Assembly (NCBI RefSeq): GCF_042242105.1
Contig: NC_092020.1
Location: forward strand, 25,284,342 to 25,348,341
Reading direction: 5' to 3'
Source: Pempheris klunzingeri
Lineage: Eukaryota; Chordata; Actinopteri; Acropomatiformes; Pempheridae
DNA length: 64,000 nt
Part shown: piece after piece, positions 2,944-57,086 of the stretch
How the letters are laid out: each line of letters begins with the position of its first letter
Position numbering within the stretch: the stretch's first letter is position 1
The notes under the pieces: generated by a model
Told to the model about the DNA's origin: nothing
The model's input: only the letters and a program-made list of their open reading frames with translations
Databases searched by the model: none
Position numbers and translations under genes: made by a program

Positions 2944-3666
2944 TAAAATAATAATAATAATAATAAAGCAGCCTAGAATATTAATATTATATACTAAATT
3001 ATATTACATTTAACTAAAATAATTTAAAGATAAAGTAATAAAAGCATGTAAAATATTGGAGTGTATTCCAAAAAGGAGGGAAATAAAATAATATACAGTT
3101 AAATTTAATTAAATAAATCAGCAAACACAGCAATAATAGAACCGTTACAGTTAGCATCATCTTCGTCTTCATCATTTTAATAACTGGACTGAACAGTTGA
3201 TCACATGATCAATAAACAGCAGATTCAGATTTAAGTGAGTTTTTACGTTAAAACTGGTTTCCGATTCAAATTACAGCGAGAAATAGAAATAGAAATAAAT
3301 GGTAAAGACTCATTCAAAGAAATTGTTGGATTTAATGTGAAAATCTAAATAATCTTTAATCTTTTCTTCCTGAGTGTCGTTTAGTTTATTTGGAGTTTAC
3401 AGCCTGAGTCCTGTTTTATACGGTTTGTCCCTTTAACTCACACACGACGGCGACAGTTTGATACAGAAGCATCAACTCGGGAACAGACACAGGGTTCTCT
3501 GAAGCTCCCCGACTGGTTCCATGTTCTCATCTGTTAACAACCAGAGGAACGATGAGGTCAAGAAGAAATGGGCAGACTGGGAAAATGGTGAACCTGTCCT
3601 TTAAAGAGGAGAACATGGAGAACAAAGTGGAACATCTGAGCTGAACTGATGAAAACAGAACCAAGA

Positions 3667-3681
3667 GCTCCCTCTGCTGGA
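3667..3681 (-). promoter_or_regulatory. CTCF-like motif, weaker
   Basis: The minus strand reads CCAGCAGAGGGAGCT, one mismatch from the CTCF core, just before the trinucleotide array. Confidence 0.3.
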
Positions 3682-3720
3682 CAAGAACAAGACTGAATCT
3701 ACTCTGAGACTGCTGCACCA

Positions 3721-4275
3721 ATGATACTATTAACACTACTACTAGTAATAATACTACTATTGATACTACTATTAATACTACTACTACTAATAATAATAAT
3801 ACTACTACTACTATTAACACTACTACTAGTAATAATACTACTATTAATACTACTACTACTAATAATACTACTACTACTACTACTATTAACACTACTACTA
3901 GTAATAATACTACTATTAATACTACTACTACTAATAATAATACTACTACTACTACTATTAACACTACTACTAGTAATAATACTACTATTAATACTACTAC
4001 TACTACTATTAACACTACTACTAATAATACTACTACTAATAATACTACTACTACTATTAACACTACTACTAATAATAATAATACTATTGATACTACTATT
4101 AATACTACTACTACTACTAATAATAATAATAATACTAGTAATACTACTACTACTACTACTATTAACACTACTACTAATAATACTACTACTACTATTAACA
4201 CTACTACTAATAATAATAATAATACTACTACTACTATTGATACTACTACTACTATTGATACTACTACTATTAACT
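3721..4275 (+). repeat. Large ACT/AAT trinucleotide satellite with higher-order units
   Basis: About 555 bp built almost wholly of the triplets ACT, AAT, ATT, AAC, AGT and GAT in one phase. The phrase ATTAACACTACTACT marks eight irregular higher-order units, roughly 33-105 bp long. All length differences look like multiples of three, so both strands stay open. The resulting Leu/Ile- and Val/Leu/Ile-only frames are repeat artefacts, not genes. Confidence 0.92.
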
Positions 4276-4359
4276 ACTATTCTAGAAGAAATATTCCGTT
4301 AACTAAATAATAATCTAATAAAGTGAGGAACCATGTGCTGTGATCTTTGTTCCTCCCGT

Positions 4360-42274: not shown

Positions 42275-45200
42275 ATGGCCGCTCAGACGGTGTTCTCGGT
42301 GGAGATGTTTCCCGTCGGCGTTTCTCTGATGGAGGACGGTCAGAACCTCAGCGACATGCCCTCTAACACGCTCCCCGCCCCTCAGCTGGTGATGCTGGCC
42401 AACGTGGCGGCAGCGGAGGGCGGCGGCGGCTGTGACAGCAGCGCGGCAGACGAGAAGGAGATGATGGAGCTGAAGACGGTGGGATGCAGCTACTCAGACA
42501 GCGAGGACGAGAGCATCATCAGGTCAGGAGTTAGTCTGCTCCCAACTCCTGTTGCATCATGGTCTTAAATTCTTTTTAAAAATGTAAAAATTATTTCAGC
42601 CAGTCGTCGAATCAGAAAAATGAGAAAATAACCTCTTACCTGCCAGTTAACTCACCTGTGTGTCCGATCAGGTACAGCTACGACAACCAGAACCACAGAG
42701 AGGTCTGCATCATCGAGTACCCCGAGTCTCCGGGCCCGGGCATCAAGGCCGTGATCGTGGGAAACGACACGGAGGGGGATGAGGAGGACGATGGAGACAA
42801 AGCTGAAGACCTGTCGCGTCACACTAGGCCCCGCCCCCCTGCCAGCACCAAAACACCTGAGCAGGGCACCAAACGCAAAGACAGCCCCGCCGCCGCCGCC
42901 ACCACCACCACCACCGTTGCCGCCACCGTCACTGCCGCCACCACCACCACCACCACCGTTGCCTCTGCTGCCACCACGACGGAGAGCTCCAAGAAGAAGA
43001 AACCCTTCCACTGTAAACCGTGTCACTTCCAGGCTCAGAACGAGCAGGAGTTTGTCGAACATCTGGGCACACACGGCATCAGCAAGATGATGGTGGTGAA
43101 CCGGGTGGAGGGGAGGAGCAAGACCAAGGTCAAGGAGGCGGAAACGGCCGAGTCCCAGGCGCCGTCAGGCAGGGGGGGGGACAGCGGCGAGGAGGCGGGG
43201 ACGGGAGGAGCGGCGGCGGGGGCAGCAGGTGACATCAAAGGGCTGATCCGGTGTGAGCGGTGCGGCTACAACACCAACAGATACGACCATTACATCGCCC
43301 ACCTGAAACACCACAGCAAGGAGGGCGAGGACCACAGGTAACACACAGACTGACCTCCTTCCCCGTTGTTGTTTACGTCATGTTCATGCATCAGGACGCA
43401 CTCCTGGCAGATCTGTGCAGACAGCTGGATGCTAACAGGAGAGTTAGCATTGAGTTAGCAAGTAAACATGGATGTAAACAGAAAAATCAGCTTTGCAGAT
43501 GTTTAGGAAAATAATTCAACATGTTTGTAGGATTTGAACAAAATCTGGGAAAAGCTCAATTTTGACTCTTTTCAAGGTTTGGAACATAACTAACATAACA
43601 TAAGGTTTTCAACATAATTTGTGGTTTTCATCCACACAAACCAAAACTCTTTTAATATTTGAAATGAAACGATCCAGTCGTCGTATTCAAGACAAGATAT
43701 TTATAATATTATATATTTATTATTATATTTATTAGTCCCACGGTGGAGAAATTCAGTGTTACAGCAGCTAAAGTAGAACATTCAGTAAAATAGTGAATAA
43801 TAAACAGTCAAGACAAAAGAAAAACATGTAAAACAAGACACACGACATGTAATATTCAATGTGCTGTATATAAACTGAGTGTGTGTGTCTGCAGGGTGTT
43901 TAAGTGCACGCTGTGTCCGTACACCACCGTCAGTCAGTACCACTGGAGGAAACACCTGAGGAACCACTTCCCCAGCAAACTGCACACCTGCAGCCAGTGC
44001 TCCTACTTCTCCGACCGCAAGAGCAACTACATCCAACACATCAGGACACACACAGGTAGGACACGCCGTCAGTCCGTCCGTCTGTCTCTGCTGGTGATCA
44101 GAAACCTGGAGGCCGCTACGATGAATAATCAGGTTTCTCATGTTCCACCTGGAAAACCAGGATAAAACTCCAGATCTGGACTCCAGAGTGTAAATGTGCT
44201 CACACACATTGTGTTTTGTTTCTGTGCAGGTGTCCGTCCTTTCCAGTGTCTCTACTGCGACTACTCCAGTTCACAGAAGACCCACCTGACCCGACACATG
44301 AGGACTCACTCCGGTCAGTCGTCCACACTGAACTCTGTAAAATGTTCCTTTAAAACACGGGAACGTGTGCAGGTCAATAGTCTGGAGCCAAACATCAGAG
44401 TAAAAGTACTGAGAGATAAATCAGTAGACAGACTGAACTAGTAGTATTAGAAGAAGAAATGGGTGATTGTTGATATGTTGATTGTTTTTCTTCTTCTCGT
44501 CACTCACTGTAAACTTGTTTTTGTCTGTGTTGCCTTCACTGACGCAGTCGATGTGGGATTAACACGGTAAAGTGATTTGCAGCAGAGCCACACGCTGTCA
44601 CTTCCTGTGTTGTGTTGTGTTCCTGTCCGAGGCGCTCGCGCTGAAGCAGATCAGCCTGAAAACACGCCTGTAAATCCACTGTGTAAAAAAAACAAACAAA
44701 AAAAAACAAGACAACAGAACAAACAATCTGAAAGAAGAACTCAAACTGTGTTTTCAGGTTTATCTGCTCTGGTGTGGACAAAAACTTCCTGTACGAACAG
44801 TTTTGTGTCAGAAAGTTAGACCGCTGTTGTATGATCTCCAACGGGCTGCATAAACAAACGCTGAGTCTGATTTAAAATACATTACAAATTATATTTTACA
44901 CACAAAAAAATGATAATGTAGCTCTGTGATGGTGCTTCTACAAGACTGAAAACTAGTTTTAAAAACGGGAAAAAAAAAAAGTGATTTTTATCTAGAATGT
45001 CTCAGATTTGGTCATTAAAGAGTCATTAAAGACACTTTATGTACTGAGGCAGGTTAATTTACAGCAGCACAATAAAGACAACAGTAAGGGAACAATAGAT
45101 TAAACTTTTAACTTTACTGTAAATTAAATTGAATAAACTGTACACAGTAACAAACGCAATAAAAAAATTGGTTAAACCTGAATTAGGAGCAGTTTTTAGG

Positions 45201-47217
45201 AGTTTTAGGAGAGTTTGTTCGTCTGCTGCATGAACTCCTTCCGTGTCTCACCTGTGCACGTGTCACACTGTCCTCTGCAGCAGTTTGACGTTGTTTTCTT
45301 GCCTTCCTGTGCGCAGGTGAGCGGCCTTTCAAGTGTGAGAGCTGTAACTACCTGGCAGCCAACCAGCATGAGGTGACACGCCACGCCCGGCAGGTGCACA
45401 ACGGCCCCAAACCTCTCTCCTGCCCCTACTGCGAGTACAAGACCGCTGACCGCAGCAACTTCAAGAAGCACGTCGAGCTCCACCTCAATCCTCGCCAGTT
45501 CCTCTGCCCTCTCTGCAAGTACGCCGCCTCCAAGAAGTGCAACCTGCAGTACCACATCAAGTCCAGGCACTCGGGCTGCAACGTCGCCGTGGACATCTCC
45601 AAGGTCAAACTGCGCGTGAAGAAGCCCGGTCCTGACGGGGCGGAGGAAAACACCAGAGCGAGCAAGCTTGACAATTCATCCAGCGTGGAGGAGGACTTCG
45701 ACATGGACGAGGACGACGTGGAGGACGACGGCGGCGGCGTGAGCTCGAGCCCGATCAATCTGTCAATCAGAAAGAGCAGCCGGCCCACCGCCATCCAGTC
45801 AGCGCAGAGTGAGGCGGCTGAAAAGGCTCCGAAGAAATCCAACGTCACCTCAGAGAAAGAGAAACTACCGAAAGTGAAGGACAAGGTGGAACTGGAGAAA
45901 AAGGTCTCAACGAGGCAGAAGAAGACAGAGAAGGTCAATGAGAATCTTCTGGAGAGCACATCTGTTAAAGAGCCCCAGGCGGTGATGGCAACAGCTGCTG
46001 TAAATACAGAAAACAAGACAAAGAGACGAGTGAAGAAGGTTCCCGCGGAGAAAACAACTGTCCAGGACCAAACAGCAGGAGCTCAAGTGGAGAAAGACCA
46101 AACGGAGAAATCTGACCAACAAAGATCAGAGGAAGAACGAGTGGTGAGGCAGAAACGGGAAGAAGAGTTGAAGCCTGAGAAGGAGAAGGAACTCCAGAAG
46201 AACGACATCAGTGGAAAGGAGAACAAGAGCGTCAACAAGCCGAGGAAGTCCGGATCAAAGAGGTCTGAAAAAACACCAGAGCATGTCGAAGAAGCTCCGC
46301 AGAAACCAGAGAGTCCGGAGAAAACTCAGAAGCAAAAAGTGGTGAAGGAAAAAGCTGCGAAGAGGAAAGCAGTGGAGGCTCTCGATCTTTCCAAAAAGGC
46401 CTCGTCTGAGACTCCATCCAAGACCAGACGGCTGAAAGCCACAGCGGCAGAGAAGCTGCAGGTGAAACCTGCTCCAGAAGACACTAAGAAGATAAACGAC
46501 GCCGCTCCTGCACCGCACAAATCCAACGAACCGGCCCCTGTAAAGCAGAAGAAGACCAGGAACAGCAGCAAGAAAGCAGCAGGTCTTCAACAAAGCGTGG
46601 CTCCAACTAAAGGCACGACGGCTTCTGTCAGCGGTCCGTCCACAGGACCCGCTCAGCCAGAGAGCCCAACACGAGCAACACACTCTGAGCAGACGCCGGT
46701 GGAAAACGGCCCGGCACAGATGGATGCCTCCACAGGTGAGACCGCCCCAGCAGTGCCTGAAAAGACTCTGAACAAACCCTCAGAAAAGATGGAGGATTCT
46801 CCTTCTTGCAGCTCAGGTGAGGGCACACCTTCCCCAGCCGAACACCGGCCCGCTCCGACGTTTGTCAAACCCACGTCGCCGCCTCCTCTGGTGCTTCCGG
46901 GCCAGCGGAGCAAACCTGCTGATCCGGAGGACGACGAGGGCATCCACAGCAGCCACGAAGGCGGGAGCGACATCAGCGACAGCGCCTCCGAGGGCAGCGA
47001 CGACTCCGGCCTGAACGGCAACGGCGCCGGGTCGGGCAAGATGGCCAACGACCCCGAGACGCCCACTGACGAGATCCCAACGCCGACGGAGCTCAAGAGT
47101 CACATGTGCATCTTCTGCGACCGCACGTTCCCTTTGGAGGTGGAGTACCGACGCCACCTGAACCGCCACCTCGTCAACGTCTACTACATGGACAACACGG
47201 CTAAAGGACAAAAATGA
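42275..47217 (+). CDS. rest: RE1-silencing transcription factor (REST/NRSF)
   Basis: Zinc-finger repressor that binds RE1/NRSE sites and recruits Sin3 (N-terminus) and CoREST (C-terminus) to silence neuronal genes. Coding exons: 42275-42522, 42672-43337, 43895-44055, 44230-44313, 45317-47217 (3060 nt, 1019 aa), all in phase. The N-terminal repressor region starts with MAAQTVFSVEMFPVG. Eight C2H2 fingers lie at about 195-217, 275-297, 307-329, 335-357, 363-385, 391-414, 420-442 and 448-471. A long Lys/Glu-rich region follows, with PINLS (532-536) and ALDLS (741-745), both resembling CtBP-binding PxDLS. Finger 9 (982-1004) is the CoREST-recruiting type. Human REST is 1097 aa with the same finger layout. 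Oddities: a 31-residue Ala/Thr/Val tract before finger 1 and a Gly-rich linker between fingers 1 and 2. It is followed by noa1, tail-to-tail, as in human. Confidence 0.97.
42888..42984 (+). repeat. rest: Coding GCC/ACC trinucleotide tract in rest exon 2
   Basis: Runs of GCC and ACC triplets encode an Ala/Thr/Val stretch at about residues 156-187, just before zinc finger 1. Triplet slippage here would keep the frame. Confidence 0.85.
43675..43800 (-). mobile_element. LINE-tail-like fragment in rest intron
   Basis: TTTATTAGTCCCACGGTGGA then GAAATTCAGTGTTACAGCAG reads as a reversed Rex-type tail next to ATATTTA-rich DNA. Confidence 0.4.
44548..44566 (+). other. rest: Candidate rest neural microexon (exon N-like, 19 nt)
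   Basis: Between exon 4 (finger 5) and exon 5 (finger 6) there is ACTGACGCAG/TCGATGTGGGATTAACACG/GTAAAG. Joined after exon 4 it reads THS-VDVGLTR and then TGA at the exon 5 junction, because 19 nt shifts the frame. The protein would stop just after finger 5. In mammals the neural exon N lies in the same intron and gives the truncated REST4 isoform under SRRM4 control. A pyrimidine-rich stretch with TGTT/TTGCC words lies upstream at 44470-44540. Transcript support is not available here. Confidence 0.5.
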
Positions 47218-49970
47218 GGCTCTGTATCCATGGCAACGCATTCTGCATGTACATTTTTGTGCAGTTTTTTTTTTTTTTGGTGCTTAAAGCAGAAACTTTG
47301 ACTTCTGGCGCTCTAAAGCAAAGCTGAGTCGTCAGGAAACACCAGTTAATCCCAGTTAGCTGGTTAATATCAACTGTCTCTTCATGACTGGTTACAAATA
47401 TCAACACACACATGGTTTTGAGTGCCTGTTTTCTAAAATATTGGAAATATAAACTCTCTGTATGCCTTTTTATAATAAGGGGTCCAAGCACCGCTGTCTG
47501 TTTTGTGAAATATGCTAAACCCACTTTTGCTAGCTGTTCTCTAGCCTTTCAAGTCTGAGACCAAACGGGGGTTAAAATATTTGTTGTAGGCGTCTGTTCT
47601 TTTTTTCTTTTTTTTTTTGCAACTACATGAGTTTTATCGTTGTTTGCACAGTCAGTGTCATTAATGGAAAAACATTTCAAACATCAAATTTGGTGCACGA
47701 TGTGCTCCCGATCCAACACGCCGAATTTAGTGCAAATCCATTATATCGTTGTAACATCGTCCTGGTGTGTCCTCAGTGTTGTCTTGGATTATTAATGACA
47801 CATTTTTCATATTGGATTTGGTGCTAATCTGACATTCGGTGGCACTAAGATACATTTTTGTTATCAGGACACAAATATAGTGTTCAGACGCCACTAAATC
47901 TGGTACGCAGATCCAAAATGTGCCCCAATGTTGTCAAACTAAATTTGGTGAAAACATTTAAAGCATTAAACGGCTATTTTCCATGTAAAGTGGAGCAACG
48001 GCGACCCGAGCAGAGAGTTGAGACACGTCTTCTGTCCAGAAAGCAACACCGAGACGATAAAACCAGTTAGAGCTGCTGCTCAGCAACAGACTCGGCTACG
48101 ATGCTGAGCGAACGCTGAAACAGGCCTCGGGTTGGTGCACCTTTGGTTTGGGGGTGCGTTGGGTGCTTGGACCCCCCCGCACACCTGCTGGTGTTGTGCT
48201 GTTGGTGCCTCACTCAGCTCTGCTCATAGTTAACCCCACTTTTTAAACCTCCACAGCACTCATCATGTTTAATTTAGACGAATCAAACTCAAGATTCTGA
48301 TGACTTTGTGTACATGTAGGTGTTTTTTTTCTTTCTCTTTGCCAGATCATGTTCATCTGTGATTCATGTTAACCGTCAGCAGCTTCTCATCATTTCTCCA
48401 AGTGAATTTTTAAGATGTTTGTTGAGACATTTCTGCAAATGTTCGAATCGTCTGATTGAATCATCAAATCTGAGGCAGTCGGTCAGATTTCTGCTCCACA
48501 TGAACATTTCCTCTGTTGCCAGGGATTGTTGTAATTTACTGTATGTAGGTGAAGTTCAGAAACTGGTTTCTCCAAATATTATTTTCTATGTTTTTTTTTT
48601 TTTAAACATCCAGTGCCTTTGACAATCAACTTTGTGTACAGTTTGTACTTTTTTTTAGCTTTCTTGTGTTGTATTTCAGATGAATTGACAACAATCTCCC
48701 TCTGAAGTTACTGTCATGTTGTTTGTTTTCGGCTCGACGGTTTAAAGTCCGCAGAGACGACCGTGCGCTCGGTTTCTGTGGCGGAAAATGGGTTTAATAG
48801 AACTAGTGGTTTTTTCCTCATCCAGAGTGTCTTTGTTGAATGCTGCCGTCTTTCAGTTCAGATCGGCTTCACGAGATCACCCAGGTTATTATTAACATCC
48901 CATTTTATTCCTTAATTATTCACGACTGTAAATTCTGCATTCAAATCAGCGTTTGTCTGGTTTTGAGGGTTTAAAAAAAAAAAAAAAACTGACGTTAAGA
49001 AACTCTTTTTGGTTAAACTCCAGGTTGTCTCCTTGTAAATACTTGTGTGCAATATTCCCTTTTAGTTGAGAAGCCAAAGTGACCGTGGAGCTCTTGTAAG
49101 CGATGCACTCGTGTAGATTTTTCGTTTTTTTCCTCCCATTGTAAAGAAACTTTGTCGTGTCCTCGCCTCTCTGATCTGTTTCCCAGTAGGGAGATTTGCC
49201 AAATCATAAATATGAGGCATCAGACTTCAGATCTACTGAGAATTTTCACTTTCCATTATTTGTAGATGTTATTTTGGTGGCACTAAGAACCTTCCATTGT
49301 TTTCTGTGTGCTTGTATACTTTATTTTGTCGTCTTGAATCATGATCCTGTACGTTAATGTGTCTGTATTTACACTGCAGTGACATAAACTAGGTAAACAA
49401 AAGGATAAAACTGGTGTTATTTAACTTTTTATTTCTATTCTGACTCCCTGTGGAGTGACTTCAGCTGTTGTTGGGACTTCAAATCATCAAACTTGCTGAT
49501 TTGCTGTCAGTCAGTTAACTTTGTTGATAACCCAGCTCTAAAACTATGAACTTATTTTGTTTTTAAATATCTAAATATTAAAAAATTATGCAAGATTTTC
49601 CTCCAGTGCATGAACAGACAGTTTTATTAAAATAAAAAAGATGAAATAACACCATCTTTATTCTTTAAAGGAGCAAAAAAATAAGAGGATTTAAGTCTTT
49701 TTCTCCGGTTAGCAGAGGTTTATTAGCTAATCAGTAACAGGAGGACGAGAGAAACCGTCACAGTTTGAGTTTTACTTAATGGAAATTAGCGTATTTTCCC
49801 ATTTAAATCCTAAACGTCTTCAGTATCAGTTCGTAGACTGCATGCAGGTAGAGCGTTCGTTTCCTCAGACTAACACGGTGAGACGTGGTTTCCATCGGCA
49901 GACGCAAATTTAATCAGTATTGTACTTTATTCTACACTTTGTTTTCGAATAAAGATTTTTAAAAATCAAC
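47218..49970 (+). other. rest: Probable rest 3'UTR
   Basis: AT-rich, no coding signal, ending at AATAAA (49948-49953). An earlier AATAAA is at about 49631. GTGCCTT at 48613-48619 matches the miR-124 seed. The length is in line with the long 3'UTR of mammalian REST. Confidence 0.6.
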
Positions 49971-54600: not shown

Positions 54601-57086
54601 GTCAACAGGTAAACTGGTTAACAGGTTAACTAACCCTTCAGCCGGCTCTCCCCCTGTCTCCCCCCCGTCTTACCCACTAGGTATCCCTGCCTGCTGAAGA
54701 GTTTCAGCCTCCTCAGCTCGTCCTGCGACAGCTCGCTCTCCGCCTGCTGCGACGTTTTGTTCAGTCGCTCCTGACGTTTGAACATCCTGTACGGAGTCGG
54801 GTTGATGATGGGAAACTTCAGCAGGTTCAGAGTCGTCCCTGAATGCAACACGGCAGGAAAAAGCAAACACAGTCATATGATGACTAATTGCAGCACTTTC
54901 TGAAAATGAAATGCAATACGAAGTTGAAACACAGATTTCACTCTTTGAAGGCCATGGTTCTGTATTTCTGTCATTTTTAAGATGTTTTCTTTTCACTTTT
55001 TTTTGTATTTTTTATTGGCTCATTGTTATCATCATTGCTGAATTTAAAAAGGGGCCCTCAAAAAAACATTTCCCATCATGCTGTGTGAGTTCTGTGTGTT
55101 TGACAAACAATAGACTACCCTTAAATTGATAGAAATGTGAATGGAGTTTGGTGTGCTCACCAGGCAATGGCGATATGGTGGCCTTGTGGATGACGTCAGA
55201 GGCTTTGGACTTGCAGTAGTCGGACTCGAGCAGCGTGTTGAAGAGCGTCGACTTCCCAGCGTTGGCACTGCCCACCAGGTACACATCACCTTTGTACTTC
55301 CAGGACTTCTGCAGGCTGGAGATCAGACCCTCGATGCCGTACCCGGTCTTGGCGCTGATCAGGTGGATGTCGGTCACCTGGCTGCCGAACCCGGCGTCCT
55401 GACAGTACTGGGAGAGCTGCCGCTTGATTCGCTGCAGGTAGTTGGTCGAGTCTCCGGGAAGCAGGTCGATCTTGTTGCCGAGGACGACCACGTGTTTGTT
55501 GGTGCCCACCAGCTCCGGCAGGTCGGGGATGATGGAGTCTGGGACGTCCAGCAGGTCGACGATGAGCAGCACCAGAGCCTTGTGGGGGCGGACCTGGCGC
55601 ACCACGTCGCGGTACTGGTCTTTGGACATCTGGAGGCTCAGGGCTTTGTGGTGGTGGGTGAGCAGGTGGCAGCGCTGGCAGGTCGCTCCGCTCAGACGCT
55701 CCTCCTGCTGCAGCACCTTGAATTTCTCACTGGGCAGATATCCGGGGACGGCGGCGGCGGTGCAGTGCAGGACGGCGCCGCAGCCCGAGCAGCAGGTGTC
55801 ACTAAACGGTTCATCCACATCTGGGGTGCCGAAGACTTTATGCTCGCCTTTTCCTGCTGCCTTCTTCTTCTTCTTCTTCTTTGCTGCCACCATGCTCTCG
55901 TCCAGCGGGAAGTCGACGTCGTGGAACTGGATGAGAGAGTCGGGCTCCGCCTCCTGCTGGGCCACGCCCCTCAGCACCTCCAGCTGTAGCTCCAGAGACC
56001 TCAGCTGTATCTGAGGAGGAACCTGAGGAGGATCAGCTCCAGGAGGAGGAGGAGGAGGGGAGGAAAAGGAAGAGAAGGAGAGGCCTTTGTCCTCCTGATG
56101 GTGGTCCTCCTCTGGATCTGAACCCAGAATAGAGAGAAGTAAAAACCACAGAAGAAGATAACTTCCTCATAGATGTCCTATCATAGTTTTTGTGTTGAAA
56201 TCTACCTTTAATGTTTCTATTGAGAGAAGCAGCTCTTCATCTCTAATCTTCCTGTTTGTCTCCCTAAATCCACTTTAATGTTTATTTGCAACCACAACAG
56301 TCGTGTCGTACAAGAAAACACCGCTTTCTAACACTTCTACTTGGCTGTGGTTTTATTTCATCATTAAATTGAACTCTTCCTGCAGATGTTTCAAAATAAA
56401 AGCCTTCAGGTTGTTTCCCTCATTATTCGGGATTTTAATGTGAAAAATCAGCAGGAAGTCAAGTGTCACTGACACCCGAATTAAAAAGCATCAAAGATGG
56501 AAAAAAATGGTTAATCAGTAGATTAAATGTTAAATTGTTAAATCAAAGTGACCAGTAAGATATGAGAGATTAAGTAATTACACCTCTGCTCAATACGTAT
56601 ACTACTATATTATGTTATATATAGTATTATAATACTAATACTACTAGTTAGTTTTCTATTATTATTGTTATTGTTATTAATCAATATACTGTCAATAGCT
56701 GTATACACAAAGTTTAATGTGTGAAAAACTATTATATTCATCTGAATGTGGAGGAGCAACAGTAAAACCACAGAACCTCTGATTTAAATATGGTACTACA
56801 ACAGTATTTGTAGTATCACAGTCTGTGTGTATTTGTACTTTACGTCTCAGTATTTGCAGTATTTGTACCTGAGTGTCTCACCTGTACAATCCACAAACAC
56901 GAACTGCTCCTCCAGGCTCGGGTCCACCGTGCAGCTCCGGACTGTCCTCCGGTCCCTGCTGCTCAGCTGCCGGGTCAGAAACCGGCCTGCCGCGGCCTCT
57001 GGCCCCGCAGCGGGGAGGCGGCGGGCGGGGAAACACCCGCTCCTCCACACCGCCCGCCGGACGCTCACCTGAAACACCTTGAGCAT
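51669..57086 (-). CDS. noa1: NOA1, mitochondrial circularly permuted GTPase
   Basis: NOA1 is a YqeH-type GTPase of the mitochondrial matrix, needed for mitoribosome function and respiration. Exons in transcript order: 57086-56882, 56117-55161, 54838-54674, 54584-54468, 54359-54268, 53787-53656, 53066-52950, 52856-52739, 51931-51669 (2166 nt, 721 aa; human 698), all GT-AG and in phase. The N-terminus is Arg/Ala-rich and mitochondrial-targeting-like. A lysine run (148-154) precedes the zinc-binding CSGC (178-181)/CQRC (215-218). GTPase motifs come in the permuted order NKID (283-286), SAKTG (323-327), GSANAGKST (351-359), DTPG (503-506), diagnostic of the family. The C-terminal part matches human around [14 protein letters not shown] and PPLLP.IV.IKG. 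It starts at the first in-frame ATG, head-to-head with nipsnap3. Intron 4 is a DR5 array; intron 5 holds a minisatellite and a GA tract. Confidence 0.96.
53792..53876 (+). repeat. GA-rich tract (polypyrimidine in the noa1 transcript) next to the exon 6 acceptor
   Basis: Directly upstream of the noa1 exon 6 acceptor, the transcript strand is about 80 nt of CT/CCCT repeats, an extended polypyrimidine tract. Confidence 0.8.
53935..54215 (+). repeat. Minisatellite in noa1 intron 5, about 31-bp unit
   Basis: About nine copies of AAGCTAACGTTAGGCTATAA plus ACTTAGGCT, with AAGCCATAAA and ATGCTAACG variants. Each unit carries the palindrome CTAACGTTAG or a near copy. Confidence 0.85.
54365..54436 (+). 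repeat. 11-bp tandem array = AGGTCA direct repeats with 5-bp spacing (DR5)
   Basis: Seven AGGTCA hexamers start at 54365, 54376, 54387, 54398, 54409, 54420 and 54431, each separated by CACAG. The array fills most of the 108-bp noa1 intron 4 (54360-54467). AGGTCA-N5-AGGTCA is the canonical DR5 retinoic acid response element. Confidence 0.9.

Follow-up and report, generated by a model that had tools for sequence, protein, structure and literature searches.

The window analysed here, 64,000 nt of Pempheris klunzingeri DNA (NC_092020.1, positions 25,284,342 to 25,348,341), contains a coding region at 42275..47218 on the + strand that, by the protein it encodes, is the fish rest gene. Its five coding exons (42275-42522, 42672-43337, 43895-44055, 44230-44313 and 45317-47218) join into one open frame of 1019 aa with nine C2H2 fingers, and the product matches PF24540, a REST-like finger family, with an E value of 4.1e-23, alongside general C2H2 families. 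This report concerns a candidate 19-nt microexon at 44548..44566 (+), which lies in the intron between fingers 5 and 6. That intron (44314..45316, +) is of phase 1, interrupts the finger-5/6 linker and occupies the position of mammalian exon N. Upstream of it is the 84-nt finger-5 exon (44230..44313, +), which ends in phase 1 as ACT CAC TCC G/gtcagt. Downstream is the last coding exon (45317..47218, +), which starts as gcgcag/GTGAGC and carries fingers 6-9, the C-terminal region and the normal stop.

The first-pass annotation had described this island as 19 nt between an ACGCAG acceptor and a GTAAAG donor, and its coordinates, dinucleotides, length and frame were confirmed. The candidate reads gacgcag/TCGATGTGGGATTAACACG/gtaaag, with the encoded tail VDVGLTR. 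It is preceded by an 89-nt, pyrimidine-rich stretch free of AG (44457..44545, +), which stands before the acceptor AG at 44546-44547 and holds a yUnAy motif (CTCAC, with its A at -42). A TGC at 44531-44533 lies at -17 from the acceptor. The donor GTAAAG (44567..44572, +) includes an in-frame TAA at 44568-44570. RNA structure around the candidate exon was nothing unusual (z 0.38).

When the microexon is included in the joined reading, the predicted product is a five-finger protein of 393 aa ending in THS-VDVGLTR. Base 45317 completes the Arg codon of this reading and the TGA at 45318-45320 comes next, which bears out the tail and stop given in the first description. Fingers 1-5 are retained, while fingers 6-9 and the C-terminal region are lost. 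The TGA had been presented as falling exactly at the next exon. It is indeed present, but its placement was over-read as special: the intron splits the linker Gly codon as G/GT GAG, so that the second to fourth bases of the last coding exon read TGA after any insert of length 3n+1. The truncation is therefore owed to the place of the intron as much as to the island. The stop is also doubly encoded, since a weaker donor 5 nt downstream would give a 24-nt exon in which the TAA inside gtaaag is in frame, leaving an identical tail. Because the truncating stop lies in the same exon as the normal stop, the transcript should escape junction-dependent decay, unless there is an intron in the 3' untranslated region. 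Passages of a review place the nuclear signal of REST around finger 5 (PMC10605157); as fingers 1-5 are kept, a nuclear truncated protein is plausible.

Microexons that depend on SRRM3 and SRRM4, and on the eMIC domain of these proteins, have a distinct architecture. According to passages of PMC8797185, eMIC targets combine extremely weak 3' splice-site regions and long pyrimidine tracts with long AG exclusion zones and a UGC close to the acceptor, a splicing code that is largely unique to these exons; of the features described there, mammalian targets show all except a weak donor and a strong downstream branch point. A UGC/GC requirement has been published for SRRM targets (passages of PMC3464207). 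The pairing of a long AG exclusion zone with a weak 3' splice site is present at the candidate (89 nt; acceptor score 4.4). Its AG-free zone is the longest among the 63 AGs of the intron, whereas the four normal rest acceptors have zones of 13-39 nt. Pyrimidines make up 70% of the last 60 nt before the candidate, compared with 45-65% at the normal rest acceptors. Splice sites were scored with general position weights that were not fitted to this genome. By these weights the candidate acceptor takes sixth place among the 63 intronic AGs that were scanned, and the candidate donor (5.6) third place among 79 GTs; the normal rest sites score 5.2-11.0 (four acceptors) and 6.3-8.7 (four donors). A pair with candidate-like scores plus an equally long AG-free zone appeared in none of 500 shuffles.

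A weak acceptor would also fit a real but unregulated exon, that is, a low-level cryptic or constitutive minor exon without neural or Srrm control, which would amount to splicing noise lowering the output of rest. We regard this as very improbable.

We defined a microexon filter by a length of 3-30 nt, an AG-free zone of at least 85 nt, an acceptor of at least 4.4 and a donor of at least 5.6. On both strands of 170 kb around two srrm genes (340 kb of strand), it returned one match. Outside introns that bear microexons, the rate was about 0.003-0.008 matches per kb, a rarity that is partly post hoc because the cut-offs equal the candidate's values or lie slightly under them. In the window, counting both strands, there were two matches, the candidate and 49380-49392; slightly different cut-offs (3-51 nt, long zone) gave three pairs on both strands, the candidate included. 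The match at 49380-49392 (+) is a 13-nt island, TGACATAAACTAG, with an AG-free zone of 90 nt, downstream of the rest stop codon.

Within the rest intron itself, three AG/GT pairs of 3-51 nt reach both of the candidate's scores, the candidate being one of them. Another island could thus be the fish exon N, for example 44758-44771 (14 nt) or 45053-45083 (31 nt), and the former even scores higher (6.2 and 6.1). Both, however, fail the microexon filter, and their AG-free zones do not rank in the intron's top six by length. In length 44758-44771 is 3n+2, while 45053-45083 is 3n+1. We consider it most improbable that either of them, or a further island of this intron, is the exon in question.

For comparison, the filter was run on 34.9 kb from 13 control loci, picked because microexons were expected there. 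The receptor-phosphatase (PTPR) controls were the best 6 of 15 query matches, with 4 kb upstream of each; three yielded a known-type microexon and the other three yielded none. For Src, 7 loci were used from 12 query matches (8 with loci), and an N1-type exon was found in 2. The filter returned 8 pairs at 6 acceptors, and 5 of these 6 read as known-type neural microexons: ELRE twice, DQRE in a third PTPR paralogue and src N1 twice. The sixth belongs to a further 18-nt island. No match was obtained at 8 of the 13 loci. ELRE and src N1 are neural microexons of known type. The ELRE microexons, 12 nt long at two receptor-phosphatase loci, have zones of 102 and 227 nt, donors of 5.8 and 5.8 and acceptors of 6.4 and 8.1. 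The N1-type exons, 18 nt long at two src-like loci, have zones of 122 and 133 nt, donors of 8.5 and 5.7 and acceptors of 8.5 and 6.1; the N1 readings in loci L021 and L022 were made from the letters, and that in L021 is the less certain. Like SRRM3/4-dependent neural microexons (the eMIC program) in general, and like the PTPR and src microexons of this genome, the candidate falls within 3-30 nt and has a long AG-free zone and a weak acceptor; a TGC also lies upstream of it. It is unlike most SRRM3/4 exons in that it shifts the frame, while the vast majority preserve it (passages of PMC7652395).

Two further islands were noticed among the PTPR controls. At L051 484-495, a 12-nt island reads DQRE, again from the letters, in the third paralogue, where the two others have ELRE; it is possibly a diverged meB-type microexon. 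At L047 596-613, an 18-nt island, GTGGCACGCCCATACGAG, likewise passes the filter; its donor is very strong (10.2).

The genome also encodes the expected class of regulator. SRRM_C (PF15230) was matched above its cut-off on two contigs, C7 and C14, and a third, sub-threshold match is the second exon of the C7 gene. Both halves of the eMIC domain are found in each case, SYSPMKKRRRDSPSHLEARRIT and ARKRPIPYFRPSPSSSSRS in the C7 gene and SYSPIRKRRRDSPSFMEARRIT and SARKRPIPYYRPSPSSSS in the C14 gene. SRRM3/4 proteins with an eMIC domain are thus encoded by two genes, which we provisionally name srrm4-like (C7) and srrm3-like (C14).

The locus has the sequence anatomy and the reading frame of such an exon, in a genome that has the regulator genes and in which known-type microexons have the same architecture. 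On this basis we think it likely that 44548-44566 is an SRRM3/4-dependent REST4-type microexon of fish rest. We infer its inclusion in RNA, its neural specificity, its dependence on Srrm proteins and its effect on the protein, as follows. The exon would be alternatively spliced in neurons, and probably in hair cells too. Its acceptor would be too weak for most cells. In neurons, inclusion would be brought about by Srrm3 or Srrm4, working through their eMIC domain and through the UGC close to the 3' splice site. Inclusion would shift the frame so that the linker codons G/GT GAG are read as TGA, and the resulting mRNA would encode 393 aa: the N-terminal region and the first five fingers would be kept, and fingers 6-9 would be lost along with the C-terminal region. 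The expected outcome is the loss of full-length REST, together with a weak or interfering REST4-type protein.

Several observations weigh against this proposal. The case comes from genomic sequence of one species, and the filter thresholds were derived from the candidate. In zone, acceptor and donor alike, the candidate falls slightly short of each of the four measured controls. TGC is a poor discriminator: each of the four normal rest acceptors also has one at a distance of at most 31 nt, and one control microexon has none in the nearest 30 nt. The candidate donor is modest, while mammalian eMIC exons, in passages of PMC8797185, reportedly lack the weak donor of the fly ones. Around the srrm genes, which were partly covered, no RE1 reached at least 14.5 of the weighted 18.5; RE1-like sites there were weak, with five at 14/19 in 170 kb versus one in a single shuffle. 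Such sites would serve a possible arm of the switch in which the srrm genes are repressed by REST. Moreover, at least one equal-scoring splice-site pair arose in 46% of 500 dinucleotide-preserving shuffles of the intron, and one of length 3n+1 in 20% of them. As the shuffles were not exceeded, we rejected the splice-site scores as evidence for a microexon.

It is conceivable, then, that the island is a product of chance, an unused AG...GT pair in a pyrimidine-rich but ordinary intron, and that REST is perhaps inactivated in some other way in fish. The shuffles, the two other pairs of the same intron and the passing of the same filter by 49380-49392 fit this explanation. Against it stand the low rate at which the filter, with its AG-free zone, finds matches outside microexon-bearing introns, and the fact that the island sits in exactly the intron of mammalian exon N and has the truncating frame. 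Overall we hold a chance origin to be unlikely. What sets the candidate apart is the SRRM3/4-target architecture seen in its sequence, not its splice scores.

The SRRM3/4-dependent microexon proposed here can be compared with its mammalian analogue. In passages of the published work, mammalian REST4 is reported to arise from the same finger-5/6 intron, with five fingers kept and a stop in the exon that follows. In human exon N, a weak acceptor is combined with alternative donors that give 4, 50 or 62 nt (passages of PMC3390395). The candidate resembles mammalian REST exon N, or Rest exon 4 (the source of REST4, sNRSF and REST-N50), in its place in the intron, its weak acceptor and the truncation after finger 5. 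Like the 16-nt exon of mouse Rest, its 19 nt are 3n+1 and lead to a stop in the next exon. It differs from mammalian exon N in length, with 19 nt in the fish versus 16 in mouse and 4, 50 or 62 in human. Two pieces of human exon N (15 and 22 nt, from primers in passages of PMC2883591) were matched nowhere in the intron plus flanking DNA (4,003 bases), even with up to 3 mismatches allowed. Since the length of exon N already varies between human and mouse, the missing match is weak evidence against common descent.

The first-pass annotation had called the island the fish counterpart of exon N. This stands as far as the rest gene, the intron, the outcome, the acceptor features of SRRM3/4 type and the two eMIC genes are concerned; the unmatched human pieces speak weakly against it. 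Counterpart status is thus partly supported, by position and frame logic as read from the sequence, and common descent is not supported by a sequence match.

A tentative extension, which we find somewhat doubtful, is that the conserved item is not the exon but its socket, the phase-1 finger-5/6 intron with G/GT GAG, into which an exon unrelated in sequence and length to the mammalian one would fit, so that ray-finned fish would have an Srrm3/4-controlled REST switch as well. The exon in this socket may have been replaced more than once, or may have originated independently. If the microexon itself is real, the REST/SRRM switch would either go back to the last ancestor that ray-finned fish share with mammals or have evolved twice, and its function would have persisted while the exon sequence turned over.

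A possible setting for such a switch is the hair cell. Passages of PMC7652395 and PMC9604452 describe how REST is inactivated in mouse hair cells by splicing, through inclusion of an exon driven by SRRM4 and SRRM3, and how a human DFNA27 mutation that disturbs it leads to deafness. In zebrafish, srrm4 knock-down leaves sharply fewer hair cells; the passages that describe it (PMC3464207) are silent on fish rest splicing as the cause. A fish REST4-type exon was reported in none of the titles and abstract openings found by full-text search, though supplementary tables or splicing databases may list one. Passages of two zebrafish microexon papers (PMC12626424, PMC13281805), of a mouse/zebrafish REST paper (PMC8415321) and of a tilapia REST paper (PMC7990894) carry no mention of it. 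REST4 has been reported in mouse and rat lens, in a study that also used goldfish (passages of PMC2994760). Most likely, the novelty lies in the fish member and not in the kind of exon.

The end of the intron shows some peculiarities of its own. The last-exon acceptor directly precedes a strong donor-like CAG/GTGAGC (45314-45322, score 10.5), as in recursive splice sites, and an alternative acceptor with an AG-free zone of 65 nt lies at 45281, 36 nt upstream of the last-exon acceptor. The acceptor tracts of the candidate (44530-44547) and of the last exon (45299-45316) have TTGCCTTC..CTG..CGCAG in common. Duplication or shared splicing signals may lie behind this likeness. We do not claim that the candidate acceptor arose by duplication of the last-exon acceptor: as high a likeness was reached in 1.4% of 2000 shuffles, but this figure is post hoc.

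Searches for relatives of the gene returned little. A second rest copy was not found in the 646-Mb genome, the next-best match to fingers 6-8 being 39% identical among the matches listed. A rest paralogue was sought for internal comparison and none was obtained, with the intron DNA matching itself alone genome-wide. Among viral contigs and genome contigs, 3 and 32 stretches, respectively, matched the pattern searched for and none was confirmed as a rest relative. A REST chain was absent among the matches listed to solved structures (60 of 171).

Elsewhere in the window, the open reading frame at 55015-56163 (-) shows matches to GTPase domains and resembles NOA1, a neighbour of REST in mammals. 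Positions 3527-4310 form a long low-complexity tract of triplet repeats, in which several frames are open on both strands.
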